DNA of 64,000 nt from assembly GCF_030246885.1 (NCBI RefSeq), contig NZ_CP126739.1, positions 1,674,001 through 1,738,000 on the forward strand. The letters run 5' to 3'. Numbering within the stretch: the first letter of the stretch is position 1; each line of letters opens with the position of its first letter. The DNA comes from Microbacterium sp. zg-B185 (GTDB lineage Bacteria > Actinomycetota > Actinomycetes > Actinomycetales > Microbacteriaceae). Under the pieces are notes generated by a model that saw only the letters and a list, made by a program, of their open reading frames with translations, did not search any database and was not told the origin of the DNA. Below, one piece after another: positions 7,846 to 52,042 of this stretch. Both the position numbers and the translations under genes were made by a program.

Positions 7846-8070
7846 ATGAGCGCCGACCGCCCTCGCCTCTGGACTGCCCAGGAGCTTGCCGACTATACGG
7901 GCATCCCCATCAGGACGCTCGCTGACTGGCGGACGGAGCGCGCGCGCAGCCGAGGTCTCGGATTGCCGTTCGTCGCAATCTCGGCGCACAACGTCCGCTA
8001 CCGCGATGAGGATATCGAGGCGTTCATCGCAGGGCGGATCGTGGCTCCGATGGATAGGGCGGCCGACTGA
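7846..8070 (+). CDS. Small helix-turn-helix protein, probable excisionase / AlpA-like
   Basis: 74 residues from the ATG at 7846. It carries a MerR/excisionase-like DNA-binding unit: WTAQELADYTGIPIRTLADW, then a positively charged stretch and VRYRDEDIEAFIAGR, the usual pattern of helix-turn-helix plus a recognition stretch leading to a final helix. Its stop shares a base with the integrase start at 8070, a typical xis-int arrangement. It probably controls the direction of recombination or regulates the element. Confidence 0.8.
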   Translation: MSADRPRLWTAQELADYTGIPIRTLADWRTERARSRGLGLPFVAISAHNVRYRDEDIEAFIAGRIVAPMDRAAD

Positions 8071-9392
8071 TGGCGCGGCCGAAGCGCGCGCTCGGCGAAC
8101 TCGGCAAGGTGACCTACACCGTTGAGGGGAGCGGTCTCGTCATCGCGCGAGGACGCGTCCACGACGGCAACGGGCGCGAGCGTCGTCCGAGCGGCAGCGG
8201 AGCGACCGAAGCCGAGGCGCTGGCCGCATTGCAGGAAGCGGCCGATGTTGCCGTCGGTCGAGTCCTGGCACGACGCACGCAGCTCATGACCGTCTCGGAG
8301 TTGGCGACGGCGTGGCTGAAGACGGCGTATCACGACGACGACCCGCGAGTGCTGCGCCAACGCCGCGAGCAGACCGTCGATGGCTACGCATCGGTGGTCC
8401 GAGCGCATGTCACCCCGCGCGCCGGAGCCATCCGTATCGCCGACATCACCGCTGATCGCGCCGACGGGCTGCTCATGGACATCGCACGGGAGAAGTCGGT
8501 GACGACCGCGAACAAGGTTCGTAACGTGATGTCGCTCATGTTCGATTGGGCGATCCAGCAGGGACATTTCTCGGCTGCCGGGTCGATCCAGCAGACACGG
8601 TACGGAGCGGTCGTCGTGGCGAACCCCATCCGTGCGACCCGGCGAGCGGATGAGCCGAACACGGTGTACTTCGAACTCGACGCGTTGCAGGTCAAGTACA
8701 TCCTCCACCTCATCCGCGACGTGTGGCCGGAGCGACACCGGGCGCGGTATCCGGTGGGCCGGCGGCCCAATTACAAGCTGCTCGCCGACTACATCCTCAT
8801 CACGCTCGGCACTTCCGAGAGAACCGCGGAGCCGATTGCGATCCGGTTCCAGGACGTGCGGTTCGAGGCGGTGGAGCAGCCGGATGGAAGCCTCACGATG
8901 GAGGCGCTCGTCTGGGTCGGGGGGACGATGGTTCGCACGAAGTCCCGCGGCCTGTTCCGCCAGGACTCGCCCAAGTCGGAGCGGCAGAAGCGTTGGGTTC
9001 GCGTTCCGAAGTTCGCCGCCAAGGTGCTGAGCGAGCTCGTGGCCAGCCATGTTCCCGATGCCGAACGGAATCCCGACGACTTGCTGTTCACGACCGAGCG
9101 CGGCCGGCCGCGCGACCCCAGCGCAGTCGGCGAGCTGCTACGGATGTTCCGCCGCGAGTTCAAGCCGGAGCTCTTGGCAATCGGGGTCGACGCCGAGCAC
9201 CTCACCTTCCGCAGCCTCCGCAAGGCCGTCGCCGCGGCGGTATCGAACACGGCCGGCGTCGAGGTCGCACGCGATCTGCTCGGGCACAGCGACGCGGCGA
9301 TCACCGAAGGCCACTACGCGAAGCGCCCCGACCTCATTGTCGAAATCGCCGCCGACGCGCTCGATGAGGTGTTCGCGGGCATTAACGCATGA
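8070..9392 (+). CDS. Tyrosine recombinase / integrase (440 residues)
   Basis: Full-length phage-type integrase: N-terminal arm-binding region, SAM-like core-binding domain (about 70-170) and C-terminal catalytic domain. R251 (GTSERTAEPIAIRF), R384, H406 (LLGHSD) and Y416 (GHYAKRP) fit the catalytic set. The usual His of the HxxR box appears to be Arg (R381-S-L-R384), so activity may be altered. It follows the excisionase-like gene directly and sits beside the glnA-like relic, so it is the best candidate for having mobilised the outer element. Downstream are two decayed integrase pieces. Confidence 0.88.
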   Translation: MARPKRALGELGKVTYTVEGSGLVIARGRVHDGNGRERRPSGSGATEAEALAALQEAADVAVGRVLARRTQLMTVSELATAWLKTAYHDDDPRVLRQRREQTVDGYASVVRAHVTPRAGAIRIADITADRADGLLMDIAREKSVTTANKVRNVMSLMFDWAIQQGHFSAAGSIQQTRYGAVVVANPIRATRRADEPNTVYFELDALQVKYILHLIRDVWPERHRARYPVGRRPNYKLLADYILITLGTSERTAEPIAIRFQDVRFEAVEQPDGSLTMEALVWVGGTMVRTKSRGLFRQDSPKSERQKRWVRVPKFAAKVLSELVASHVPDAERNPDDLLFTTERGRPRDPSAVGELLRMFRREFKPELLAIGVDAEHLTFRSLRKAVAAAVSNTAGVEVARDLLGHSDAAITEGHYAKRPDLIVEIAADALDEVFAGINA

Positions 9393-9422
9393 AAGGCCGG
9401 GAAGAGGGAGAACTGACAACGC

Positions 9423-9695
9423 ATGATTGTGAGCAACTACGAGCCGCTGCTGCGCACGTTCGTCGACGACAACGCTGCGGCGCTCACCGCCTGGGGTGTC
9501 GATGTGGACGACTTCACGACACACCTGTATCGACGCACGACGGCGACATTCGTCGAGCGCCCCGCCGGAATCACACTCGCTTCGCGGCTGCTCGGCCACG
9601 CGAACGAGCAGATCACGCGCGCGAGCTGCGGCGTCTGCGCCGTCGAAGTCGACCCGATCACGATCGACATCCTCGACGAAGTTCTCGGATCCTGA
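9423..9695 (+). pseudogene. C-terminal fragment of a tyrosine recombinase
   Basis: 90 residues matching only the end of an integrase catalytic domain: HLYRR (HxxR box), then ASRLLGHANEQITR. The expected catalytic Tyr segment reads ASCGVC, so the nucleophile is lost, and the first Arg box and all N-terminal domains are missing. It lies between the 440-residue integrase and an N-terminal integrase fragment, as left by repeated insertion and deletion. Confidence 0.7.
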
Positions 9696-9714
9696 CAGGC
9701 AGGGAAGGTGCAAC

Positions 9715-10353
9715 ATGCGAACAGGGCGACCGCCGCTCGAACTCGGCACACACGGCACAATCACCACCCGCTCCGTCGGCAATGGGCGCACATGCGCCAT
9801 CGCGCGACTGCGGCTGTGGGATGGAGAACTCCACCGAGTCACAGCCACCGCAGACACCGCGACGGACGCCCGCGCACGGCTGGAACTCCGAATCGCGGAG
9901 CGACTCCGGCTGTCGGAGATCGATGCCTGGCGTTATCTCACTCCCGACGACCCCTTCGACGAACTCGCCTACGTGTGGCTCGGCGACCTCGCGTGGCTCT
10001 CCGATGTGAGCGAGGCTACGTACGCGCGGTGTGAACGCGTGGTTCGAACGCTGCTCACGCCGGCGTTCGGCGATTTGACGATCGGCGAGATTACCGCGGA
10101 CCGGATCGAACATCACTTGGCTGCTCAGCGGGCCGCATCAGAGGAGGCCGCCGCCTCCTCGCGCGACGCGATCCAGTTGCTTCTCGACTTTGCGGTCGGC
10201 GAGGGCGTGATCCTCTCGAACCCGATGGAGGTTGCGGCGGCAGATCGAAAGCCTGGGCGTCTCGGCGATGTGAGCGTCTACAGGGAGCTTGTTCGTGGGC
10301 GCATAGAACTGCGCCGCGACGAGCGTCGGCGCGATATGGGACATGACCGCTGA
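9715..10353 (+). pseudogene. N-terminal half of a tyrosine recombinase (truncated)
   Basis: 212 residues from the ATG at 9715, with GGGAAGG seven bases upstream. Residues 1-170 resemble the arm-binding and core-binding domains of actinobacterial integrases (VSEATYARCERVVRTLLTPAF, GEITADRIEHHL, GVILSNPMEVA). After NPMEVA the frame goes into unrelated basic sequence and stops, with no catalytic Arg, HxxR or Tyr. Lacking the catalytic domain it cannot recombine DNA; it might still bind arm sites. It ends about 110 bases before the tRNA 3'-end fragment. Confidence 0.7.
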
Positions 10354-10462
10354 CGGAGCTCGTCGCGGAAGGAGCGGCTTCTTCGATACGGGCGCGCGCC
10401 GACCTCGGCGATGAAGCGCCAGCCGCTCCTTTAGCGCAACACGAGATTTGAACCGGCATCAA

Positions 10463-10494
10463 GGGGTCGCAGGTTCAAATCCTGTCATCCCGAC
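10463..10494 (+). repeat. tRNA 3'-end fragment, candidate attachment site (attL)
   Basis: The sequence reads as the T-arm and acceptor 3' strand of a tRNA resembling actinobacterial tRNA-Pro: GCAGG-TTCAAAT-CCTGT followed by CATCCCGAC. No matching 5' half lies upstream, so it is not a functional tRNA. Bases 10463-10484 are identical (22 of 22) to 45629-45650 in the same orientation. It is followed by a terminator and then an excisionase/integrase pair, the layout expected at the integrase end of a tRNA-targeted island. Confidence 0.65.
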
Positions 10495-10499
10495 TGGAT

Positions 10500-10529
10500 A
10501 GTCCCGGGAACCTAAGGGTTCCCGGGACT
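10500..10529 (+). terminator. Intrinsic terminator downstream of the tRNA fragment
   Basis: AGTCCCGGGAACC (10500-10512) pairs perfectly with GGTTCCCGGGACT (10517-10529) around a four-base loop, followed by TCTTAGTT. It looks like the original terminator of the tRNA whose 3' end is preserved here. A weak echo (GTTCCCGGG) lies downstream of the second repeat copy near 45683. Confidence 0.8.
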
Positions 10530-10675
10530 TCTTAGTTGGTGAGATGTGACCACGTCACCGAAAACCTACCGAATTGACGTCGCCGCGAGTGTCGTGCGCC
10601 GATTCGCCTCGATCGTTGCGGTTCCGCGGCGGTTGACCCCGGCTGGCCGGGCGGCGCTCTGCGCACCTCTTGGAT

Positions 10676-10915
10676 ATGGACGCCGAGAACAGCCTGTCGC
10701 TCGAGCAATGGGGGCTCGAGAAGCTCTTCAACATCACCGAGCTCGCGGACTATCTCCGTGTTCCGGTGTCGACCATCTACGAGTGGCGGACGAAGGGGCG
10801 TGCGCCTCGTGCGCACCACTACGGCAAGCACCTCACCTTCGCCGCTTCCGATGTGAAGGCGTGGGTCGACGCGCAGAAGGAACCCGAGCCGCTGCCACCG
10901 ACGCAACGGCGGTGA
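10676..10915 (+). CDS. Excisionase-like helix-turn-helix protein
   Basis: 79 residues from the ATG at 10676. The core FNITELADYLRVPVSTIYEW is the classic helix-turn-helix of the excisionase/AlpA family, followed by GKHLTFAASDVKAWVDAQ. It ends four bases before the next integrase gene, so the two are probably co-transcribed. The likely role is directing excision of the 10.46-45.65 kb element. Confidence 0.85.
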   Translation: MDAENSLSLEQWGLEKLFNITELADYLRVPVSTIYEWRTKGRAPRAHHYGKHLTFAASDVKAWVDAQKEPEPLPPTQRR

Positions 10916-10919
10916 TCCG

Positions 10920-12107
10920 ATGAGCCGGGAGCGTCTCGCGGTCGGCACTTTCGGCGAGATCGGGTTTCTGCCTGCGCCTGGCGGTCGGGTCATCGCACGT
11001 GCGCGCTATCGGGATTGGGATGGAAGGACGCGTCAGGTTCAGGCCACGGCGGCTTCCGAGGCTCTGGCCGAGCGGGCGTTGAAAGTGAAGTTCTCGACTC
11101 GCAGCCTCTTCCAGCCGGCGACATCGTCACTCACTCCCGACAGTCTCCTCTCTGATCTCGTTGTGTACTGGCTGGACGACCTCGACCTCGAGGGCAGACT
11201 CGCGCCGCGCACACGGCAGCTTTACGAGCGAAACATGCGCACCCTCGTGCTGCCCGCGCTTGGGAATCTGACCTTGCGCGAGATCGGCGTCGCACGGTGC
11301 GATCACTTCCTCAAGCAACTGGCACGGCAGAGCTACAGCCGCGCGAAGCACGCCCGGGTGGTTCTTCGCCTCGCGCTCAGTCTCGCGGTGCGACACGAGG
11401 TCTTGCTGCGCAATCCGATGGATCACGTCTCGCGCATGCACCGGCCGTCCAGCACACCTGATGCATTGACGCCTGTCGAAGTCACGGCGATTCGCGCGGC
11501 GATCGCCGTGTGGGAGACGGGTCGCGCAGTCTCCGGCCCCAAGCCCGACGGCCAGTTGGGTGCCATCGTCGAGGTCATGCTCGGCACCTCCGCGCGGATC
11601 GGCGAGGTGCTCGCAATCCGTCGCCGCGATGTTGACATCACGAGTTCGATGCCGTCTATTCGCATCGCGGGCACGATCATCAGCAACAAGGGCGAACCCA
11701 CCCAGCGGCAGGACCATCCGAAGACGGCGCAGTCGCGGCGGACCGTTGCCATTCCGTCGTTTACCGCCGAGGCAGTCCGACGGAGGCTGGCAAGACTCGA
11801 GGACGCATCGCTCGACGGCTTGCTGTTCAGCAGCCGAGAAGGAACTGCTCTTTCGACGAACAATGTGCGCCGGCAACTGCGCCGTGTCATGGAGATCGCC
11901 GACATGACCGGCGTGACCCCACATGCCTTCCGTCGCGCCGTGGCAACAGCGATCAACGAGCAGGCGGGGGTCGAGCTGGCCGCGGAGCTGCTGGGGCACA
12001 CCGACCCGAAGATCACCATTCAGCACTACATCCGACGCAACGAGATGGTGAACCCGGCGACGGCCGAGATGCTGGAGCGCGCGTTCCCGAAGGGTCAGCC
12101 TGAGTGA
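10920..12107 (+). CDS. Tyrosine recombinase / integrase (395 residues), intact
   Basis: Complete phage-type integrase. The catalytic residues are all visible: R226 (TSARIGEVLAIRRRDV), a basic beta-hairpin with HPKTAQSRR (about 266-274), H335 and R338 (TPHAFRRAVAT), H360 (LLGHTD) and Y370 (IQHYIRR). The core-binding domain spans about 75-170 with LAPRTRQLYERNMRTLVLPA. It follows an excisionase-like gene and sits 400 bases from the tRNA 3'-end fragment. It is probably the enzyme that inserted the island now bounded by 10463 and 45650, and appears functional. Confidence 0.92.
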   Translation: MSRERLAVGTFGEIGFLPAPGGRVIARARYRDWDGRTRQVQATAASEALAERALKVKFSTRSLFQPATSSLTPDSLLSDLVVYWLDDLDLEGRLAPRTRQLYERNMRTLVLPALGNLTLREIGVARCDHFLKQLARQSYSRAKHARVVLRLALSLAVRHEVLLRNPMDHVSRMHRPSSTPDALTPVEVTAIRAAIAVWETGRAVSGPKPDGQLGAIVEVMLGTSARIGEVLAIRRRDVDITSSMPSIRIAGTIISNKGEPTQRQDHPKTAQSRRTVAIPSFTAEAVRRRLARLEDASLDGLLFSSREGTALSTNNVRRQLRRVMEIADMTGVTPHAFRRAVATAINEQAGVELAAELLGHTDPKITIQHYIRRNEMVNPATAEMLERAFPKGQPE

Positions 12108-41999: not shown

Positions 42000-42735
42000 C
42001 GGTTTCCCGGAACGATTGGTTGAGAGGATGTGGCTGCTTCTTAAAGGACAAGTGGTCGTATGCCAAGACCGTATCCGTCCGAGTTCCGTGAACGTGCGCT
42101 CGAGTTGGTGAGGTCGGGACGCACCGTCGTCGACGTTGCCGCGGCACTCGGGATCGCGCAGTCCTGTCTCTACCGCTGGAAACAGCAAGATCTTGTGGAC
42201 CGCGACGTGAGACCGCCGTCCCGGCGCGCGCCGTCGGCTGAGCTGGTTTCCGCGAATAGGCGTATCCGTGAGTTGGAAGAGGAGAACAAGATCCTCCGGA
42301 AGGCGGCCGCCGCCGTGGAGCAGGTGGTGCCCCCAAAAGACCGGTTCCGTCTCGTGGGCGAGCTCCACGCTGACGGAGTCCGCATCCGGAAGGCCTGCCT
42401 CGCGTTGGGCGTTTCCACATCGGGATACTACGAGTGGAAATCGCGAGCCCCGTCGACGAGATCGATCCGGCACGCGTGGCTGACCGACCTGATCGGCCAG
42501 ATCCACGAGGCGTCCTACGGCACCTACGGCCGGATGCGGGTACGCGCAGAGTTGCAGCGGTCACACGAGGTCACCGTCGGTCAGAACACCGTCGGGCTGT
42601 TGATGCGGCGATCCGGGCTGGCTGGGCTGCCTTTGCGACGACGGTCCAAGCGTGTCCCCAATCAGGTCACTGTCACCGACCGGGTCCGTCGCCGTTTCCA
42701 CGCAGATGGGCCCGACCGGCTCTGGGTGACCGACA
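42000..42735 (+). mobile_element. Truncated IS3-family insertion sequence
   Basis: Only the left part of an IS3-type element is present: its transposase reads normally up to LWVTDI, the start of the catalytic rve domain, and then changes at about 42735 into sequence that is the methyltransferase gene on the other strand. The right end and right terminal repeat are missing. The left terminus lies between the SDR relic and the transposase start, but I cannot place it exactly. Confidence 0.75.
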
Positions 42736-42770
42736 TATCGACCTTCTGGATGTCGCCAGCGATCACGTAG
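42060..42770 (+). pseudogene. IS3-family transposase, 3'-truncated
   Basis: 236 residues, versus roughly 400 in full-length fused IS3 transposases. N-terminal helix-turn-helix (YPSEFRERALELVRSGRTVV then AALGIAQSCLYRWKQQD), a leucine-zipper-like helix (RRIRELEEENKILRKAAA), then the OrfB part SYGTYGRMRVRAEL and HADGPDRLWVTDI. The first catalytic Asp is reached but the remaining DDE residues are lost, so it is not an active transposase. OrfA and OrfB parts are in one frame here. The last ~12 residues come from the neighbouring gene's antisense strand. Ribosome-binding site AAAGGA precedes the ATG. Confidence 0.85.
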
Positions 42771-43976
42771 TTGATCGTCCAGAGTCCGGTAGCGCGGCTC
42801 TTCGTACCAACCTTCGCATACCCCCGCTCGACGAGCTTCTGGAGAGCGTCGGGTCCGACTGACCACCTTCCGTCGGCTCCGTTCGATCGCATGGGCAACA
42901 CTGTGTCAAGTCCCGACACGCTCGGGGCCGTCGATCTGTGCTGATCCAAAGGGAGTGGTGAACCGATCCGGGCGATTGTGCGGCGCACGGGGTCCACATA
43001 GATCGGATAAAAGAGTGCAGGTCGATCTGAACGAGCAGAACCCGATCCGCGTCGCATGAGCTGGTTCCAGATGTCGGGTAGTCGCTCTTTACTTATCCCC
43101 GACCCCAGACCGATCACGTCGATGCTGGTCGGCACGATCTCGGCTGTCCCTAGCCGGACGTAGTACAGATACTCGTCGACCCGAGAAAACCCACCGGCGC
43201 GCGCTGAACCCTTTCGGTTCGTCACAGTGCTCACCATCTGAATCTCGGCTTCGGGGAACGTTTGCTCCAGCAGCAGCCCGAGCCGCAGGTACTCCTTCTC
43301 GTCGATCGTGACGATCAGCACTGAGTCCTTGGGGTTCAGGAGCCGCTTCGCGATCTTCAGGCGGCGCTCAATGAACGCCAGCCATTTTGAGTGCCGATAG
43401 AGATCGTCGCCCTCGACGTAGTCGTTGTTGTAGCGCCAATCACGTGCACCGGTGTTATATGGCGGGTCGATATATATCGCGTCGACGGCCTTCGCGTGGG
43501 TGAATGTCAGCTGCTTCAGAACGTGGAAATTCTCGCCGCTGATGACGGTGTGGAACGGCTTGCCTCCGCCGCGCTTGACAGCGCCGTCAGGGCGAAGACC
43601 CGGGTAGATCCGGTCGCGGAACTCCGCGACTAGGACGAGGTCGTCGACTGGCACGGTGGCGGTCTCGGACTCCGCAGAATCGAGGAGCGCTACCTCGGCA
43701 ACCTCGCCGGCTATGGACTCGACCCGCCACAGGCGCTGATCGCCGCGCGCAGTCGACCCGCGAGGCGGAAGCACTCGGACTTTGCTCGTCTTCCGAATCT
43801 TGTGGCCGGGGAGCTCGACAGCTTCCGGGGGCGTGGCGTTCGAAGTGGAGGCCGAAGGGGAGACGCCTCTGGAGCGGCTTGAGCTCCTCCTCAAGATCAG
43901 CCCCGAGCTGCGGATCCAGCTGCTTCGCAGCGCGCAGGAGATCAGTAAGCCGCGACATCGCATCCCCTATCGTCAT
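42735..43976 (-). pseudogene. Site-specific DNA methyltransferase (type III Mod-like), frameshifted and 3'-truncated
   Basis: Adenine-type methyltransferase with the catalytic motif DPPYNTGARDWRYNND, then RHSKWLAFIERRLKIAKRLL and SVLIVTIDEKEYLRL. The N-terminus (MSRLTDLLRAAKQLDPQLGA, ATG at 43958 or 43976) is in a different frame: at the G-run 43827-43831 (five G) the frame shifts by one, and removing one base restores ...FERHAP-EAVELPGHK. At the other end the gene stops where the IS fragment begins, so the C-terminal specificity/partner region is missing. No restriction subunit survives. It is probably the wreck of a restriction-modification or other defence locus. Confidence 0.8.
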
Positions 43977-44210: not shown

Positions 44211-45407
44211 ATGGCACAGACCCAGATCGAGCGGTATCGACAGCACGAGGTGTGGGGGCTGATCGAGCTCAAGCGTGCGGCACTTGAAACGGTCAAGTAC
44301 TCCCAGCAGCCCTATGAGGAGTCCCGACTCCAGGTCATCACCTTGCTGGAGGCGGCGACGCGGTCGAAGACGAACGCGCAGCCTGCTCTGTATGACGACA
44401 CGCTCAATGCCATTCGAGACATCCTGAACCAGCTCTCGGCGGACGAGCAGTCATTCTCGGTCTGGTCGCAGCAGTCGTACATGAACGATTTTCGATCGCG
44501 GGTGCGCGAACTGCCCGGGCCACCGCCGCGGCAGGTGAACGACAGCTACGTCGCAGCCCTCGATACTGCTGTCGCAGCTCGTCAGCAGGAGCTTGAGGAG
44601 CTTCGGGCATCGGTCGCCGCCCTGAATGAGGAGGTCGTCGCAAAGACGCGCGAATTCGCGCAACTCACCAATGAGGTGGACGCTCAGCGAGTCAAGCTCA
44701 CGGCAGACGCGGCGACCATCAGCCAGGCGGTCGCCACCGCAGACGAGCAATTGCGCCGAGAGTGGGCGAATGCGCTTGCCAGCTGGGAGCAAGAACGGGA
44801 GATGCGTGATGGCGCCCTCGATGCAGAGATGACGGCGCACATCCAGCTACTGTCGACGGCGGCACTGGCCGGTCGCCGCCTGGTCGAACAAGCAGCGGGC
44901 CACCTCACCGCCGCAGATTGGGCCGGGCGGGCGAAGCGCGAACGGTGGAACGCTCACGGGTTGCGATGGGCTTCCTTCGTCTTCTTCGCGTTCGCCGTCG
45001 TCGTTGGCGGCTGGGTGCTATGGGTGGCGATCGATAAGGACCTCACGCTGACAGTTGGCGACGGCATTCTCCGGGGCGCCCTCGTGCTGGCTCTTGCAGG
45101 CGTCGGCTCATTCCTCACGATCGAGGCACGCAGACACTTTCGGGAGGCCGACAGCGCGGAAGACGTCAAGCTCGCGCTCGCCGCTCTCGAACCCTTCTAC
45201 GCCGGCGCGGATGACGGCGAGCGCAAAGAGGTGCGTCGCGTTCTTGGTGACACGGTCTTTATCAAGAACACGTTGTCGCGCTTCAGCAACCGGGACGCGG
45301 CGAAACACGCGGGACCCACGAACGAACAGCTGAATCAAATCGTGGATCTCATCGCGAAGGGCACCGATGCAACGTCGAAGGCCGCCAAGGGCGCTACTGC
45401 CAATTGA
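44211..45407 (+). CDS. Coiled-coil protein with two membrane helices, unknown function
   Basis: 398 residues from the ATG at 44211. Residues about 115-235 are a long Ala/Glu-rich coiled coil (AARQQELEELRASVAALNEE, DAATISQAVATADEQLRREW). Two hydrophobic helices follow, about 252-274 and 286-304, then a ~90-residue soluble tail (KLALAALEPFYAGADDGERKEV). No enzyme motif. It sits between a ruined methyltransferase gene and a tRNA-like boundary, a place where phage-defence or accessory proteins accumulate, so a membrane-linked defence role is possible but unproven. Confidence 0.65.
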   Translation: MAQTQIERYRQHEVWGLIELKRAALETVKYSQQPYEESRLQVITLLEAATRSKTNAQPALYDDTLNAIRDILNQLSADEQSFSVWSQQSYMNDFRSRVRELPGPPPRQVNDSYVAALDTAVAARQQELEELRASVAALNEEVVAKTREFAQLTNEVDAQRVKLTADAATISQAVATADEQLRREWANALASWEQEREMRDGALDAEMTAHIQLLSTAALAGRRLVEQAAGHLTAADWAGRAKRERWNAHGLRWASFVFFAFAVVVGGWVLWVAIDKDLTLTVGDGILRGALVLALAGVGSFLTIEARRHFREADSAEDVKLALAALEPFYAGADDGERKEVRRVLGDTVFIKNTLSRFSNRDAAKHAGPTNEQLNQIVDLIAKGTDATSKAAKGATAN

Positions 45408-45628
45408 TCGGGATGGCAGACGCAACGTCAGGGTAGCTTCCACCGACGGCGTCGTCGACCTGCCTGAGGCGTGAAGGTCATCACTTTCCCACCTCAATCA
45501 CCCAGGGACGACCGCGGCTAACCCGATACAATCGGAGCATTCGAACCGTCCGGTTCCCTGCAAGCACAAGGGAACACGAGGGTTCTCAAGACATCCGGTG
45601 AGATTCGGAAATCGCCCGAATCCTCCAG

Positions 45629-45650
45629 GGGGTCGCAGGTTCAAATCCTG
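45629..45650 (+). repeat. Direct repeat of the tRNA T-arm core (candidate attR of the 35-kb island)
   Basis: Twenty-two bases identical to 10463-10484, containing GCAGGTTCAAATCCTG. The surrounding sequence is not a complete tRNA. With the integrase next to the left copy, the pair could mark the ends of a 35.2-kb integrated element. Confidence 0.6.
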
Positions 45651-45773
45651 CCAAGCTCACCCGAGACTGTTGGAATCTCAAGCGTTCCCGGGCGTCGTTG
45701 CGGTGTCCGGACGGATCCAGCCATCGAATAGTCATCGCGACGGCGTGGTTGCTTAGCGTGACAATGTGAATCC

Positions 45774-45799
45774 CATGCAGGGGGTCAGGGGTTCGAGTC
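45774..45799 (+). repeat. tRNA-Ala-like 3' segment (candidate attachment relic)
   Basis: CATGCAGGGGGTCAGGG (45774-45790) is identical to 52006-52022 inside the tRNA-Ala, continuing GTTCGAGTC. Only the anticodon-stem 3' strand and T-arm are present, so this is a displaced fragment, as left at the far end of a tRNA-targeted insertion. Confidence 0.6.
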
Positions 45800-45959: not shown

Positions 45960-46832
45960 TTACGGGCGGCGAACGCTGCGACGCGCTCTCGTCCGCGGTG
46001 CACCGAAGAGGTGCGAGTTGAACACGTCCGTGATGTCCTGCATGGGCCTGGTGAAATAGTGCCTGAAGTGCAGCCGGCGGACCAGCGGCTGGATGCATGG
46101 AGAAACCTCGACGAGCTTCGTGCCTTCGCGAATATCCCAGCCACGCGCTTCCCACAGACCGACAAGGCGGTTGAGCCAACTCTCAATGTCCTCGAACTTC
46201 GCGACAACAGTTGCCCGGTCCTCTCCAAGGAGATCGGCTTGATCGAACTGCCGCTTCTTCGCCTCGTATCCCAACTGAAGCTCGTTCAAACGTCCCATCT
46301 GCTCCTGGAATCCGACAACCTGCTCGCGCGTAAGCTCCACGGCTCGCCCAACCACTTCCAGCTCCTTGACGCCCTGGCAACTCTCCGGCTCGTAGTAGCG
46401 CTCGTCCGCCGCCATGTTCTTCTTGACCCTTTCCGGATCCAGATGGAGCTTCGCGTCGAGCCCCAAGGCACGGAGCGCACGGCGAACGGACTTGACGCCG
46501 TTGTAAAGGACGATGAGCTCCGTGAACTCAGCACGGAGCTTGTCCTTGACGAACGCCTCCTCTTCGCGCCGCTTCTCGATCGCTCTCCATGAGAAAGCGA
46601 GGGCGCCACCAACCATGCCGACCGCGACGACTCCGACCCCAGCGCCAGCGACGTCAGACCACAGGTCTGACCAGGGTTCCGACGTCTTGGAGGCGAGTAG
46701 GGTGCCGAGGCCAGCCCCGACTACCCCAATAACGACTCCAGCGCCGAGCCACCAGAACGGCTCGCGCCCCAGCCGGTATCGCAGCGTCTTCGCTGGCTCC
46801 ACATGCTGAATGTACTCTCGTTTCACAGCCAA
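45960..46832 (-). CDS. Membrane protein of unknown function
   Basis: 290 residues from a TTG at 46832 (GTG at 46826 also possible). Two hydrophobic helices near the N-terminus (about 28-48, WWLGAGVVIGVVGAGLGTLL; about 61-82, DVAGAGVGVVAVGMVGGALA) are followed by a charged, helical cytoplasmic part with coiled-coil character (RREEEAFVKDKLRAEFTEL, QEQMGRLNELQLGYEAKKRQ). No known domain. The start lies inside the preceding small frame (46986 leftward), so it may be a separate gene or the continuation of a frameshifted one. Same-strand neighbours suggest a three-gene unit reading leftward from 49658. Confidence 0.55.
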   Translation of the reverse strand: MAVKREYIQHVEPAKTLRYRLGREPFWWLGAGVVIGVVGAGLGTLLASKTSEPWSDLWSDVAGAGVGVVAVGMVGGALAFSWRAIEKRREEEAFVKDKLRAEFTELIVLYNGVKSVRRALRALGLDAKLHLDPERVKKNMAADERYYEPESCQGVKELEVVGRAVELTREQVVGFQEQMGRLNELQLGYEAKKRQFDQADLLGEDRATVVAKFEDIESWLNRLVGLWEARGWDIREGTKLVEVSPCIQPLVRRLHFRHYFTRPMQDITDVFNSHLFGAPRTRARRSVRRP

Positions 46833-46986
46833 GGTGGCCCGTGATCACGATGGCATGGGCCGTTCCCTGGGCCGTGTCGAGTGCCTTGGCCACGGCACCG
46901 AAGTACGACTCTCCCTCGATGTGCGCGATCACGTCCGACGCGATGGCATTCGTATAGTCTTTCTGCCACCGATCGGGATCGACCAT
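46654..46986 (-). CDS. Possible N-terminal fragment of a phospholipase-D-like protein (frame uncertain)
   Basis: The ATG at 46986 is two bases past the stop of the 889-residue gene, so it is positioned for coupled translation. The first ~55 residues look real (ASDVIAHIEGESYFGAVAKA then TAHAIVITGHLG), recalling the start of phospholipase-D-like domains, where a 'YF..' strand precedes a hydrophobic 'hhhhGW' strand. After that the frame becomes unconvincing and overlaps the membrane-protein gene in another frame. Either a frameshift/deletion joined two genes here or this is a degenerate fragment. Confidence 0.35.
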   Translation of the reverse strand: MVDPDRWQKDYTNAIASDVIAHIEGESYFGAVAKALDTAQGTAHAIVITGHLGCETRVHSACGASEDAAIPAGARAVLVARRWSRYWGSRGWPRHPTRLQDVGTLVRPVV

Positions 46987-46988
46987 CT

Positions 46989-49658
46989 TCAGATCATTCT
47001 TCCAGTCAGCGGGTCATAGGCGACGGCTACGGGCACGATCTGGTCGGTTGGCAGGACCTCGACCCATTGGTCGACGATGGGGAACTGGTCATCATTGGGA
47101 AGTGAGAAGCCGCCTTGTAGTGGGTTGAATCCGTACTCGAAGACTCGATCCACGGGCCTTGCTCGAACCGAGTTGTTGTCGCCCAGGTCGTACTCGACGA
47201 TCTCTTGCGCCGCTTCGTGCTTGTGTCTGATCCGAGCCGCCAGGTCTTCGAGGACCTCGCCGATCGTCAGGTCGTTGTAGGGCGTCCCATCCAGCGTCAC
47301 CTCGGAGGGATCGCCGGAGTATGCGGCGTCGAGCCCGTCAGCGCCTTCGACCCCCGCGCTGGTCAACCACTTGAGGGCGGCTTCCTCCTGCTCCGGGCGG
47401 ATCGGGATGACCGCCTTCACCCAGGGCGCGTTCAAGAAGGCATTGCGCATGTTGTCACCGTCGAGCTGAAGCAGCCAACCCAGGGACGAGCCGAGCCGAC
47501 TCGGCTCGGACTCCTCGGTGATCATGTAGTTATCGCGGCCGACCTCCCGCGTGCCGCCCCACCCGACGAGCGGCAATGTCGTCGCACCGTGACCCTGGGG
47601 GGCATAGTCCTGGGTCGAGCGATGGAGGCGGGGGCGCCACCATTCGGGCGCAACGTAGTACAGCATCTTCTCGACGTCGAAGATGGCGTTGATGACTTCC
47701 GCCGCGAGATGACGGGTGCGATCGTCGGGCAGGTTGAGCTTGGCCATCAACATGTCCTGGACGAGCCTGCGGTAGACGACGATCCGTTCCTCTTCGCGAA
47801 GGTCGGTCGACGGCCTCCGGACGATCTTGCTGATGGCGGTGGTCCGCTCCTTGACCGCCTCGACGAACGCCTTCTCCGTCTCTGCCCGCATCGCATTGGT
47901 CCGGTTGGTCTCGATCTCCTTGATCGTCGCATCGATCTCGGCGTTGGCATTGTCGTTGGGCGCCCAATGGAGCACCATCGGCACGTTCAGCTGCGGCTGG
48001 CCGTTGAAGCTGACCAGGTCCAGATGAACCCGGAACGTCGCCCTGCTTTCCGCGCCGGGCAGGTTGACGAGGTCGTGCACTGACAGCTGGACGGCATCGG
48101 TCGGACGCAGCTCGACGGCTGCCAAGGTGTGGTTCGGCTTCGCGCAGATGACAGTTTGCGGAAAGTCTGCCTGGATCTTCTCGAGGCTGCCCCATAACTC
48201 TTCGTCGTTCTCTTCGACCCCGTCGCGATAGACCTCACCGCGATTGTCCGCCCCGCCGTCGACGGGCAGGAACGGGATGGTCAGCGCCCTGTCGCTCTCG
48301 GCGAACGGCTCGTGCCGGGCGGGCAGCTCCGGATCGGGAATGGAGTCGAAGGAGGCCGGCTTGGCGACATGGACGAGGGTCGAGACGCCGAGCTCGCGAC
48401 CGGGATCGTCGACATAGGTCTGCCAGGAGAGATAGGACCCGATGTCTTGGACCTGGACCGCCACCTGACGCATCTTGCGTCGCAGCTCGAAGTTCTGAAG
48501 ATCATCTCCTGGGTTGTTGAAGACGTGCCGGATTGACGAGGTGTCAGTGAACTCGGTGGTTGACCGGAACACGGACTGGAAATTGTTGCGGATCGACGTC
48601 GCGATCTTGGTCGACTGCTCGCGCAACTGCGTGTGGATGACTTCGCGCGATCGTGCCTGGCTGCGCGACATGTCGAAGTTTGCGGTTGCGGAGACCTTGG
48701 GATAGGACGCGGTGACAGAGGCGCCGAGGCTCAGATCGTTGGACGAGTCCTCCTTGGACGACTCAGACAGCTCGTCTCGCATCGTGGTGGTCTGCTCCGA
48801 CGTCCGGACGGATTCGGTCAAGCGCGACAAGAGGCGATCTGTGACTTCGCGACGCGTATGGATCTCGTACAACTCGACGGTGGCGCCCGGTGCCAGCCAG
48901 ACGTGTTGGACCGGGCTTCCAAGGAAACTGTCGAGCTCGAAGTAGTACTGCCGGTACAAGTGAATGATCCCGAGCGGTGAGATGACGCCGCCGGACAACT
49001 GGTCGTGGTTTACGGGATCCAGGCCCGGCACGACTACGTCGGAGCCCGAGCGCAGATCCTCGAGACTCTTGCTCATCTGGGCCTTGACGTCCGCGAAGTA
49101 GAAGATGCCGCTGAGGATCCTCTCCTCATTTGACTCGACGAGCCTGAGTAAGGCAGCGGCCAGACGGGACTCGCTCTCCGCGAGGGCCAGCGCCTGCGAC
49201 GCGAAGTTCCGAATCCTCGCGAACCTCTTCAGCTCGACCTCGAGCTCCTTCTCTTCCTCTTCGAGCGCTCGGCCCAAGAAGTCTGGATTGATGAAGTCGC
49301 TCCAGGCGCGCCCTATCTCGGGTGGCGGCTCAGGCGGAAGGGAACGGGCGACGATCGTAAGCAGCCGGCTTCCCCCCTGCGCTCTCAATCTCGAGGGGAC
49401 CTTGCCGACATTGAGCCCGATGGGATCGCCTGCCTGACCATCATCGGCGCGGTCCGGCATGGCGACATCGGGCTCGAAGCTCTGCGCGAACCGGTTCAGC
49501 AATGTGCGTGCCTCGCGTGCGGCAGCCGCGTTGAAGCGATCTGCTGAGCGTTTGCCCTTCCAGCCGATCATCGGTTGGAACGTCCCGGTCAGCTCGCTCG
49601 CATAAGGCAAAACGCCGACATAGCCTGAGAAGTCCAGCAGGGCCTTTGGTGCGGGCAT
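46989..49658 (-). CDS. 889-residue protein of unknown function
   Basis: Start ATG at 49658 with a strong AAAGGGGG upstream. No domain recognised and no signal peptide. Residues about 135-190 are a charged helix (ALEEEEKELEVELKRFARIR). Residues about 285-400 are Ser/Thr-rich with alternating polar/apolar pattern (LSLGASVTASYPKVSATANF), resembling amphipathic beta-hairpins, between helical stretches (REQSTKIATSIRNNFQSVFR). A second half contains VLHWAPNDNANAEIDATIKE and a long helix rich in Glu/Arg, then RIRHKHEAAQEIVEYDLGDN. It is divergent from a candidate peptidase gene. The pattern could fit a membrane-inserting effector, but this is speculative. Confidence 0.7.
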   Translation of the reverse strand: MPAPKALLDFSGYVGVLPYASELTGTFQPMIGWKGKRSADRFNAAAAREARTLLNRFAQSFEPDVAMPDRADDGQAGDPIGLNVGKVPSRLRAQGGSRLLTIVARSLPPEPPPEIGRAWSDFINPDFLGRALEEEEKELEVELKRFARIRNFASQALALAESESRLAAALLRLVESNEERILSGIFYFADVKAQMSKSLEDLRSGSDVVVPGLDPVNHDQLSGGVISPLGIIHLYRQYYFELDSFLGSPVQHVWLAPGATVELYEIHTRREVTDRLLSRLTESVRTSEQTTTMRDELSESSKEDSSNDLSLGASVTASYPKVSATANFDMSRSQARSREVIHTQLREQSTKIATSIRNNFQSVFRSTTEFTDTSSIRHVFNNPGDDLQNFELRRKMRQVAVQVQDIGSYLSWQTYVDDPGRELGVSTLVHVAKPASFDSIPDPELPARHEPFAESDRALTIPFLPVDGGADNRGEVYRDGVEENDEELWGSLEKIQADFPQTVICAKPNHTLAAVELRPTDAVQLSVHDLVNLPGAESRATFRVHLDLVSFNGQPQLNVPMVLHWAPNDNANAEIDATIKEIETNRTNAMRAETEKAFVEAVKERTTAISKIVRRPSTDLREEERIVVYRRLVQDMLMAKLNLPDDRTRHLAAEVINAIFDVEKMLYYVAPEWWRPRLHRSTQDYAPQGHGATTLPLVGWGGTREVGRDNYMITEESEPSRLGSSLGWLLQLDGDNMRNAFLNAPWVKAVIPIRPEQEEAALKWLTSAGVEGADGLDAAYSGDPSEVTLDGTPYNDLTIGEVLEDLAARIRHKHEAAQEIVEYDLGDNNSVRARPVDRVFEYGFNPLQGGFSLPNDDQFPIVDQWVEVLPTDQIVPVAVAYDPLTGRMI

Positions 49659-50189
49659 TCGGCTACCCCCTTTTGGGAACAGAGTTGGCCCACTGCAATC
49701 AGATCCGTCTGGGCCTCTGTTGTCCTCGACACTATCGGCATGCGTTCCCCCCGTCGAGATGCTGCGTTCACGCCCAAGCCAGTCCTTGGCGAGCTCGAAT
49801 TCTGTCCGTCTCGTCGGCCCCGATGGTCAGGTGCGGAACTGCACGCACTGTCGACGGGGCTCGAAAACTGCACAGTAGCGGCGCGGCGAAATCGTTCAGA
49901 GTTCGGGCGCCGCCGACACGCGCCGTATATATACCGCCGAGCGTGCTTCTTGGCCTCGGTCCCCCGTAGGGCGCTGCACGGAGCGATCCGCCGCAGTGAC
50001 CACAGCGGTAACACCGCTGCCCAACCACTTCAGGCGGCGGGGGCGTTGCAGCTCCCCGGGGCCCGACATGTTGAGACGATTCCGCGCGGATGCGTACACT
50101 TCCCGCTCGTGCCTAGCAACACGTGCGCGAGCGTGGCATGCTCGGCGCGAGTACAACCTCGTCAATGGGCGCCAAGAGAGGCGGGCGGG
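49659..50189. other. Intergenic region upstream of the 889-residue gene
   Basis: About 530 bases with no convincing gene on either strand. It should hold the promoter of the leftward gene. Frames crossing it are Arg/Pro/Ala-rich filler. Confidence 0.45.
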
Positions 50190-50345
50190 ATGAGTGAGCG
50201 ACCGTGGTCCAGCCGTGGAGCGCAGGACGGAAGCAGCGAGCCAGCCGGCGTCCCGGACGACATTGGAGAATACTTAAGTTCGCTAGTGTACGGTTCCCGG
50301 TCCAACGAGGCCGGCGGGAAGCTGGTCTCGCAGATGCGGTGGTGA
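50190..50345 (+). CDS. Possible 51-residue peptide
   Basis: ATG at 50190 preceded by GAGGCGGGCGGG. The peptide MSERPWSSRGAQDGSSEPAG... is hydrophilic, with a short helical part (VPDDIGEYLSSLVYGSRSNE). No homology recognised. It lies upstream of the candidate peptidase gene but is 278 bases away, with a palindrome between. It may be a small regulatory protein or a chance frame. Confidence 0.25.
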   Translation: MSERPWSSRGAQDGSSEPAGVPDDIGEYLSSLVYGSRSNEAGGKLVSQMRW

Positions 50346-50385
50346 AGAATGGCGAATCAATCGGAACGGTTCGGATCGCGGATCG

Positions 50386-50401
50386 TTAACCGAACGGTTA
50401 A
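50386..50401. promoter_or_regulatory. Perfect palindrome TTAACCGAACGGTTAA
   Basis: A 16-bp perfect inverted repeat in the long divergent region between the 889-residue gene and the candidate peptidase gene. A related GGAACGGTT lies 22 bases to the left (50363-50371). Size and symmetry suit a dimeric repressor site. No regulator gene is adjacent. Confidence 0.45.
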
Positions 50402-50623
50402 GCGCCCACCGGATGGAGCCAGAACCGACGGGTCCGCTCACGTATCCATAAACGCGCCATACGGGATCTTTGCGGCCATAAACGGAAGCCGCTAACCCCC
50501 GGCTGAGGCAACACGAATGTTGCGACAACGCCTGCTGACATTTGCAGCTGTTGTCGCAGCACCAGACCAGGAGCACGTTGGTGCCAAGCTCAGAATTGAG
50601 ACCTGAATGCGTAGGAGGTTCAA
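50402..50623. other. Leader region of the candidate peptidase gene
   Basis: About 220 bases. CCATAAACG occurs twice (near 50447 and 50476). A ribosome-binding site AGGAGG lies nine bases before the ATG at 50624. Nothing else stands out. Confidence 0.4.
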
Positions 50624-51481
50624 ATGTCGATCGTGATCTACATTCGTGGACGGGACAACTCGCTGGAGTGGCCCTGGTACTTCGCACACCCGCGCAAGAG
50701 GCGTGTTGGCACGGATCTTTACTACTTCGACTACGAAGACCTTGAGCTCCGGGAGTACAAGGACTGGAACGGATCGCTGCCGCCGAAAAGTACACCGGAT
50801 CGCGTGTCTTCCATCGCCGGGATTCTTGATCTGTACTCATTCATCGGGCACCAGCGCGCAGGTGCAATCGAGGAACTCCACTTCTTCACCCACGGTTGGT
50901 CGGGCGGCCCCGTGCTGCGGAATACCTACGACCACTTTGCTACGGCTAGCGACCGCGATCCCAATGACATGGACCCACGAATATACGACTTTAGGTTGAC
51001 CACGGTGCTCGGTGGTGCAGCGCGTGGCGACTTTGCCAAGGCGTTCTCAAGGAGTGCTCTCGTCAAGCTCTGGGGCTGCAACCACGAAGAGGACCATCGC
51101 CAGTTCATCAAACTGAAGTTCTTCGGCGCGACAACTGACGCTGAGCGGGATGCGGCGAAGAATGAGTACCGATTCCATATCCGCGAAGGCACCTATCCCT
51201 ATGCGCTTGCCATGGCTATCCGACTACCCGTCTATGCCGCGCCGCTCGGTTGGGGAACGAGCCCATTCCTGCCGTTCGGCATCGAAGGCCGAGCTGCGGT
51301 CCGAACAAAAGCAAAGCGACGGGGCATCTTCCCACCTGCGAAGGGCGATATGTGGTGGCGTGTCAGTCCGTTCTTTCGTCCCGAGCGTGGCGATCAGTTC
51401 TATCGCCGCGAACTGAAAGCCCGAACCGACATTCTCGATTACGTCGCGTACACAGAGTCCATGGCTCGTCACGTTCCATGA
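50624..51481 (+). CDS. Candidate caspase/CHAT-like cysteine peptidase (unassigned)
   Basis: 285 residues from the ATG at 50624 with AGGAGG upstream. Two segments match the active-site strands of caspase-fold peptidases: a hydrophobic strand ending in His-Gly, IEELHFFTHGW (H90), and a second ending in Cys, ALVKLWGCNHEE (C152), 62 residues apart. H90/C152 would be the dyad. The alternative is an alpha/beta hydrolase, because GWSGG after H90 fits G-x-S-x-G, but the rest does not resemble that fold. No signal peptide or membrane segment. It is divergent from the 889-residue gene and lies between tRNA-Ala-type repeats. Family assignment is inference from motif pattern only. Confidence 0.5.
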   Translation: MSIVIYIRGRDNSLEWPWYFAHPRKRRVGTDLYYFDYEDLELREYKDWNGSLPPKSTPDRVSSIAGILDLYSFIGHQRAGAIEELHFFTHGWSGGPVLRNTYDHFATASDRDPNDMDPRIYDFRLTTVLGGAARGDFAKAFSRSALVKLWGCNHEEDHRQFIKLKFFGATTDAERDAAKNEYRFHIREGTYPYALAMAIRLPVYAAPLGWGTSPFLPFGIEGRAAVRTKAKRRGIFPPAKGDMWWRVSPFFRPERGDQFYRRELKARTDILDYVAYTESMARHVP

Positions 51482-51970: not shown

Positions 51971-52042
51971 GGGCCTGTGGCGCAGCTGGTAGCGCACCTG
52001 CATGGCATGCAGGGGGTCAGGGATTCAAGTCCCTCAGGTTCA
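51971..52042 (+). tRNA. tRNA-Ala (anticodon GGC), T-arm one base short
   Basis: Cloverleaf: acceptor GGGCCTG (51971-51977) with CAGGTTC (52035-52041, two G-U pairs), D-arm GCGC-AGCTGGTA-GCGC, anticodon arm CCTGC-ATGGCAT-GCAGG giving anticodon GGC, variable GGGTC. The T-arm reads AGGGATTCAAGTCCCT, 16 rather than 17 bases, so either the stem is 4 bp or the loop is 6 bases. CCA is not encoded. A strong hairpin follows. Because integration relics share its 3' half, it may be a mutated, possibly inactive target gene. Confidence 0.65.

Follow-up and report, generated by a model that had tools for sequence, protein, structure and literature searches.

The chromosome of Microbacterium sp. zg-B185 carries, within a stretch of 64,000 nucleotides (contig NZ_CP126739.1, positions 1,674,001 to 1,738,000; hereafter the window) that forms part of a one-contig genome of 3.57 Mb, a gene for a 285-residue protein with the look of a caspase-type peptidase, which diverges from a gene for an 889-residue protein. 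The locus raises the question of whether these two genes belong together and, if they do, what kind of unit they would form. Tentatively, we read the pair as a laterally spread two-gene module of biological conflict, in either direction of attack, in which a constant soluble protein of about 900 residues would gate an interchangeable enzyme.

The caspase-like and large protein families are linked

The gene encoding the 285-residue protein lies at positions 50624..51481 on the plus strand and the gene encoding its 889-residue partner at 46989..49658 on the minus strand, with 965 bp between the two divergent genes. Both had been read from the list of open reading frames (ORFs), and both were also picked by a simple gene caller used besides that list, confirming the places proposed for them. 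Co-occurrence of the pair in other genomes had been set beforehand as a test of the candidate system. For this search we restricted the hidden Markov model (HMM) to 13 large proteins without a caspase-like neighbour, because circularity was to be avoided, and applied it to 3654 stop-to-stop frames of at least 80 residues from the fetched loci. A large-family frame was found beside the caspase-like gene, or at most 1 kb from it, in 15 of 15 distinct loci, that is, in the window and in 14 further ones; L019 and L023 represent a single contig and enter the count once. The match in the window reached E = 5e-130, and one or more pieces at E ≤ 6e-75 were present in each locus. Sinorhizobium K101 and M103 and a second Ensifer plasmid record, all of which matched, were left out of the fetched loci. 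Comparison of sequences thus showed the two families to be linked, in bacteria distant from one another.

In 13 of the 15 loci the large gene is followed by the caspase-like gene on the same strand after a gap of 3–55 bp, forming a tight operon. Three Microbacterium loci carry the pair. The window is divergent, unlike the 13 operon loci, and in Ensifer the order is the caspase-like gene, a gene for a 130-residue protein with hydrophobic segments, and then the large gene. Such tight operons would also suit a maturation pair, in which the caspase-like enzyme would be the dedicated processing protease of the large protein, itself a structural or pore-forming agent; an account of polymorphic toxins (PMC3482391) gives caspase-like peptidases a releasing role within toxin proteins. 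However, a reverse check with the caspase HMM found no match in the fetched stretches of the 18 other large-family loci, and the neighbours of the large genes there are mostly non-peptidase or unnamed. We regard a maturation pair as improbable.

In the 285-residue protein, His90 (codon 50891–50893) and Cys152 (codon 51077–51079) had been proposed to be spaced as a dyad of the caspase type. Both residues are invariant in all 15 sequences of the family, as are the motifs R111-x-P-x-D115-x-D117-x-R119 and W150-G151. In a model of modest confidence (predicted local distance difference test, pLDDT, 59), His90 directly follows the predicted strand 82–89 and Cys152 directly follows strand 141–150. 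The His and the Cys would each lie at the C-terminal end of a core strand, as is characteristic of clan CD dyads, and the proposed spacing therefore stands. With the caspase model weak and the model of the large protein at a pLDDT of 35.6, structure prediction did not decide between folds, the caspase–haemoglobinase fold of the 285-residue protein included. Considering the dyad and the model together, the 285-residue protein is probably a caspase-like (clan CD) cysteine peptidase.

Family libraries add little to this assignment. Pfam searches at E ≤ 5 with 12 relatives of the 285-residue protein returned three unrelated weak matches only, NCBIfam holds no family for the window's protein, and PADLOC none for its family. 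Searches of the PDB reached a best E of 0.63 from a single sequence and gave nothing with profiles, and the window's genome contains no match to PF11713 (Peptidase C80) at E ≤ 10. A clan CD fold is still compatible with the absence of a library model. The family is sparse, occurring in 3 of 394 and 1 of 296 genomes (own genome included). A scan of genome contigs with the window's 285-residue protein alone yielded no relatives, and a scan with the caspase family alignment yielded 11 loci; the same alignment found no relatives in viral contigs.

The large family, its partners and a putative mechanism

The 889-residue protein belongs to an unnamed family with a recognisable core, whose members were found in Actinomycetota, Bacillota, Pseudomonadota, Bacteroidota and Cyanobacteria as well as in the haloarchaeon Natronorubrum. 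The family occurs in 5 of 394 genomes of the class, own genome included, and none of the 11 other genomes listed from the same genus carries either this family or the 285-residue one. We count the patchy spread of both families among genomes in support of a lateral module. Pfam gave nothing above the cut-off for seven members, NCBIfam only two weak matches for 21 members, each in a single member, and PADLOC no family for the large proteins of the window and Ensifer. No meaningful match was found in the PDB, where the best hit (E = 0.057) was an unrelated chain, and the AlphaFold2 model, given its pLDDT stated above, was used for no search. A phage origin was considered and set aside: two queries had no match in phages, and PHROGs contain no family for nine caspase-adjacent members; one viral contig carries a relative (L034). 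As a side observation, the large genes of L018, L029 and L056 are split over two frames, which may reflect either real decay or an error of sequencing, and two TGA stops are reported for the G241 copy.

Alignment of the window-type and caspase-adjacent large families with hhalign gave 97.4% at E = 9e-12 over 419 columns, from which the two subfamilies are homologous as judged by sequence. Despite this match, the profile of caspase-adjacent large proteins, which found relatives in 5 of 296 genomes, missed the window's own large protein and hence its genome. The latter protein shares 29–44% identity with five large proteins that have other partners, against 14–16% with the six caspase-partnered ones in the comparison and 13–16% with eight further caspase-free ones. 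Its 285-residue partner is nearest to the Pseudoxanthomonas proteins (36% versus 24–28%). Because the large protein is closest to relatives with other partners and the caspase-like protein is closest to those of Pseudoxanthomonas, we infer that the window's pair arose by a swap of partner.

What, then, are the other partners? In the 18 caspase-free loci, the genes adjoining the large gene encode patatin, PhoD, VWA, Tlde1-like, AstE-like or unnamed proteins. A VWA protein is encoded beside the large gene in L014 and PhoD, according to Pfam, in L017. Chryseobacterium has a patatin gene upstream of the large gene and an M15 peptidase gene two genes away, and on a plasmid of Natronorubrum bangense (L041, 4321–9376) a patatin gene lies downstream of the large-family member. 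The Tlde1-like neighbour in Nonomuraea (E = 1.5e-5) scores 25.9 bits, below the cut-off of 30.1, and the AstE-like neighbour in L034 (E = 0.0045), which has a BLAST relative in L055, is likewise below the Pfam cut-off. In Cupriavidus (L044), a DUF6895 protein is encoded directly upstream of the large gene. Sets of unnamed neighbours recur in L015/L016/L022 (E = 3e-5 to 5e-5 for L022), L043/L057 and L044/L056. Sequence comparison thus shows that the large family is linked elsewhere to further proteins, of which several are enzymes, and this suggests that the large protein is a common control protein with exchangeable enzymes. One point weighs against so broad a claim. The family scans, which left out L016, L047, L056 and L057, found no family above the cut-off for the neighbours in L015, L022, L039, L042, L043, L044 (705 residues) and L045 or for the downstream gene in L040; much of the neighbourhood therefore has no family name, and the claim of enzyme swapping is limited to that extent.

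The identity of these neighbours bears on a second explanation, in which the module would serve antagonism: the large protein would be a carrier for export or delivery, and the enzyme a toxin against other cells, as in a polymorphic toxin system but lacking any recognised secretion apparatus. The Tlde1-like, M15 and patatin neighbours resemble antibacterial effectors and therefore suit antagonism. The lipids of haloarchaea are ether-linked, and the patatin near the haloarchaeal large gene would hardly act on them. Furthermore, the neighbours of L044 (8155–10272) and L056 (9723–12122) align in their middle regions only (248–501 with 282–510, E = 4e-8), and their C-terminal ends do not align, a pattern that may be called polymorphic-toxin-like by analogy. 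However, Pfam recognised no secretion domain in seven large proteins. Of 20 genomes that carry the large family, two have the contractile sheath PF04984, one of them above the cut-off, and it was not found in the window's genome; cargo of a contractile injection system (extracellular contractile injection system or type VI secretion system) was rejected on this count. Nor did BLAST of 78 predicted neighbours from 14 loci (none predicted for Ensifer, and none upstream for L030 and L033) find a third gene common across genera that could confer immunity, apart from one 30% match over 82 residues between L018 and L027; shared neighbour genes occur only inside Tsukamurella, Microbacterium and Pseudoxanthomonas. 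A non-conserved immunity gene, such as that of a 290-residue membrane protein in the window (described below), could still serve. On balance, antagonism by an exported toxin appears unlikely.

A third explanation follows the original prediction, which had likened the logic of the pair to that of bacterial gasdermin–protease suicide systems and had described the large protein as possibly membrane-inserting and as having an amphipathic Ser/Thr-rich segment. Residues 268–385 (48504..48857, minus strand) indeed form a conserved, hydrophobic-poor core segment with 31% Ser and Thr, against 12% for the whole 889-residue protein, and the enrichment has the same direction in 20 of 20 aligned large sequences, the window's included. 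The amphipathic part of the description was not confirmed: 35% of equally long stretches of the window's protein have a beta-type hydrophobic moment at least as high as that of the segment, and across the 20 sequences this figure ranges from 3% to 76%, falling below 10% in four, the window's not among them. A membrane-inserting hairpin was dropped because the beta moment is mostly ordinary, and none of the eight large proteins scanned by hydropathy has a segment of the membrane-spanning type. The conserved central segment would fit a maturation pair, and the lack of a membrane segment and the mostly unremarkable amphipathicity speak against one.

For a gasdermin-type system, in which the peptidase would cut the large protein to open membrane pores, there is the likeness of a protease-like protein adjoining a larger partner. 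PADLOC, Pfam and NCBIfam contain gasdermin models, and the 889-residue protein matched none of them. It is also about three times as long as bacterial gasdermins, it lacks a membrane segment, and its family is coupled elsewhere to unrelated enzymes. With no family match, no membrane segment and no meaningful PDB match, the gasdermin identity of the large protein was rejected, and the predicted membrane-inserting partner is not supported; a suicide system of this kind is strongly disfavoured and very improbable.

Returning to the gated module that we tentatively prefer, a putative mechanism can be proposed. The large protein would bind the enzyme and hold it inactive, bring it to its site of action, or both. 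Afterwards, a trigger, either infection or contact with a rival, would free the enzyme. In the window the enzyme would be the caspase-like cysteine peptidase with its His90/Cys152 dyad, and the output would be the cutting of specific proteins. Between the His and the Cys, the invariant R-x-P-x-D-x-D-x-R loop is a candidate contact for the substrate or the partner. Gating by the large protein is favoured over a separate immunity protein because 13 of the 15 loci are two-gene operons without a cross-genera third gene, and a two-gene unit that lacks a shared immunity gene suits a gated effector more than a free toxin. As to the biological role, we can only infer one in defence, in antagonism or elsewhere.

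It is also possible, and we put this a shade more cautiously, that the pairs represent an unrecorded conflict system of bacteria and archaea, in which a soluble control or carrier protein of about 900 residues acts with several unrelated, separately encoded enzymes, including a new caspase-like family, and a single switch would thus serve many different effectors. We found no paper on this pair in the literature; its absence from print is not established, since unnamed families cannot be searched by name. If true, the large family would serve as a marker for a group of effector modules not yet on record, spread over bacteria and present in at least one archaeon, and prokaryotic conflict biology would gain a new branch in the caspase-like family. 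The large protein would provide a handle in the search for new enzymes encoded beside it, and the pair is a concrete two-gene unit whose function a single loss-of-function mutation (C152A) would probe.

The likely island and its genomic surroundings

From left to right, between 45.6 and 52.0 kb, the window contains repeats like the 3' end of a transfer RNA (tRNA), an ORF of 290 residues, the 889-residue ORF, the divergent gap, the 285-residue ORF and a tRNA-Ala gene. The region had been described as lying between tRNA-Ala-type repeats. At the right edge there is indeed one tRNA-Ala (ggc; 51971..52042, plus strand), with copies of 93–95% identity at two other sites in the genome and weaker ones elsewhere. 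The left copies are only partial and resemble tRNA 3' ends: one of 33 nt at 45767..45799, a possible left edge of the island, is 85% identical to 51999–52031 in the 3' part of the tRNA-Ala, and a second at 45626..45648 is 78% identical to 52010–52032. The G+C content is 63–65% at 40–43 kb, 60–64% at 43–52 kb and 67–70% at 52–55 kb, a course that marks the right edge alone. A search with the flanks did not find an empty site and returned almost solely the tRNA itself, plus two matches of 32–33 nt. The region is likely an inserted island.

Within the divergent gap lies an inverted repeat (50386..50401), TTAACCG-AA-CGGTTAA, for which 0.02 matches at two or fewer mismatches would be expected by chance. 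It had been called a 16-bp palindrome; the repeat and its place in the gap are real, but it is not a perfect palindrome, consisting of two 7-bp arms around a 2-nt centre. It is a possible operator.

Two further ORFs had been counted with the module. The first (45960..46832, minus strand) encodes the 290-residue protein, in which hydropathy finds two hydrophobic segments (29–47 and 61–79), in line with the two-helix membrane protein that had been proposed. It matched only itself among 197 genomes of the class and nothing in plasmids, and BLAST related it neither to the 130-residue membrane protein of Ensifer nor to neighbours of the other pairs; nothing in these sequence comparisons marks it as a conserved part of the module. 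The second, a 110-residue ORF (46654..46986, minus strand) that had been called PLD-like, overlaps the start of the 290-residue gene and was not picked by the gene caller. That identity was rejected: Pfam gave no PLD at E ≤ 1 but a sub-threshold SGNH match (E = 0.0013), and no plasmid relative was found, even with the first 51 residues. One weak match (E = 5.6e-4) appeared among 57 other genomes. This ORF is probably a remnant or no gene, and as a conserved part of the module it was not borne out by the sequence searches.

About 2 kb to the left of the 290-residue gene, an ORF of 433 residues (42662–43963) resembles a type III DNA methyltransferase; it matches a 709-residue PADLOC model at E = 6.5e-123 over model positions 42–412, apparently at part length, and is possibly the remnant of a restriction system. 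A 398-residue protein (44211–45407) gives weak matches of the coiled-coil type, contains hydrophobic segments around residues 256–304 and matches no family above the cut-off. A separate mobile region at 8070–12107 contains two genes with integrase catalytic domains and, nearby, a shorter integrase-like gene (440, 395 and 212 residues).

On plasmid pCasidaAB of Ensifer adhaerens (L021, 1–19701), the cassette of the caspase-like, 130-residue and large genes starts about 0.5 kb after DrmMI-DrmA-DrmB (DISARM). Behind it come a gene that matches ThsA weakly (E = 4.5e-4) and an LmuB-like gene (E = 5.5e-34), and the stretch has the look of a compact defence island. PADLOC scans of neighbours covered the window and Ensifer copies among the 15 caspase loci. 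As regards a place in defence islands, the Ensifer copy was seen amid DISARM and LmuB-like genes and the window copy near a type III methyltransferase ORF, and the neighbours at the annotated Tsukamurella locus are ordinary genes. Given the Ensifer copy between its DISARM and LmuB-like genes, the setting is compatible with a conflict system. Two Tsukamurella records (L020, 3825–9086; L023, 6100–11926) share an epoxide hydrolase gene, which the pair adjoins on one side in one record and on the opposite side in the other; this hints at a move of either the pair or its neighbour.

Comparison with known systems

By analogy, the known systems nearest in logic are EACC1-caspase, canu and the polymorphic toxins, none of which, in the accessible parts of their published accounts, is described with this large protein. 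With bacterial gasdermin systems the likeness extends only to the logic of a protease and its partner, and no gasdermin-like part was found. Peptidase C80, known from large clostridial toxins and MARTX, is a weak structural match of unproven relation, and the window's protein stands alone. Polymorphic toxin systems, some with caspase-like domains (Zhang et al. 2012, PMC3482391), likewise combine a constant carrier with many exchangeable enzymes, including caspase-like and LD-peptidase types. As far as the part of that account available describes them, however, the variable toxin is in most cases fused to the carrier as its C-terminal domain, accompanied by immunity genes and known export routes. 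In the pair described here, the enzyme is encoded by a separate gene beside the large gene, and we found neither a cross-genera immunity gene nor an export route. The canu (CanABC) loci, caspase–nuclease anti-phage loci reported from defence islands, also encode a caspase-family protease with a partner protein; according to the accessible text (PMC12799240), they possess a gated nuclease and a MALT1-like immunoglobulin fold, whereas no nuclease was recognised in the window's pair. The EACC1-caspase conflict system of actinobacteria and some proteobacteria (Kaur et al. 2020, PMC7159879) is, in the portion of the source at hand, likewise a two-gene unit of a caspase-superfamily peptidase and a constant partner with a logic of swappable effectors. 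There, EACC1 is a short protein with a single transmembrane segment, and it is a constant caspase that carries the variable domains as fusions. In the module proposed here, by contrast, the partner has about 900 residues and no hydrophobic segment above the threshold, and the caspase itself would be the part that is exchanged.

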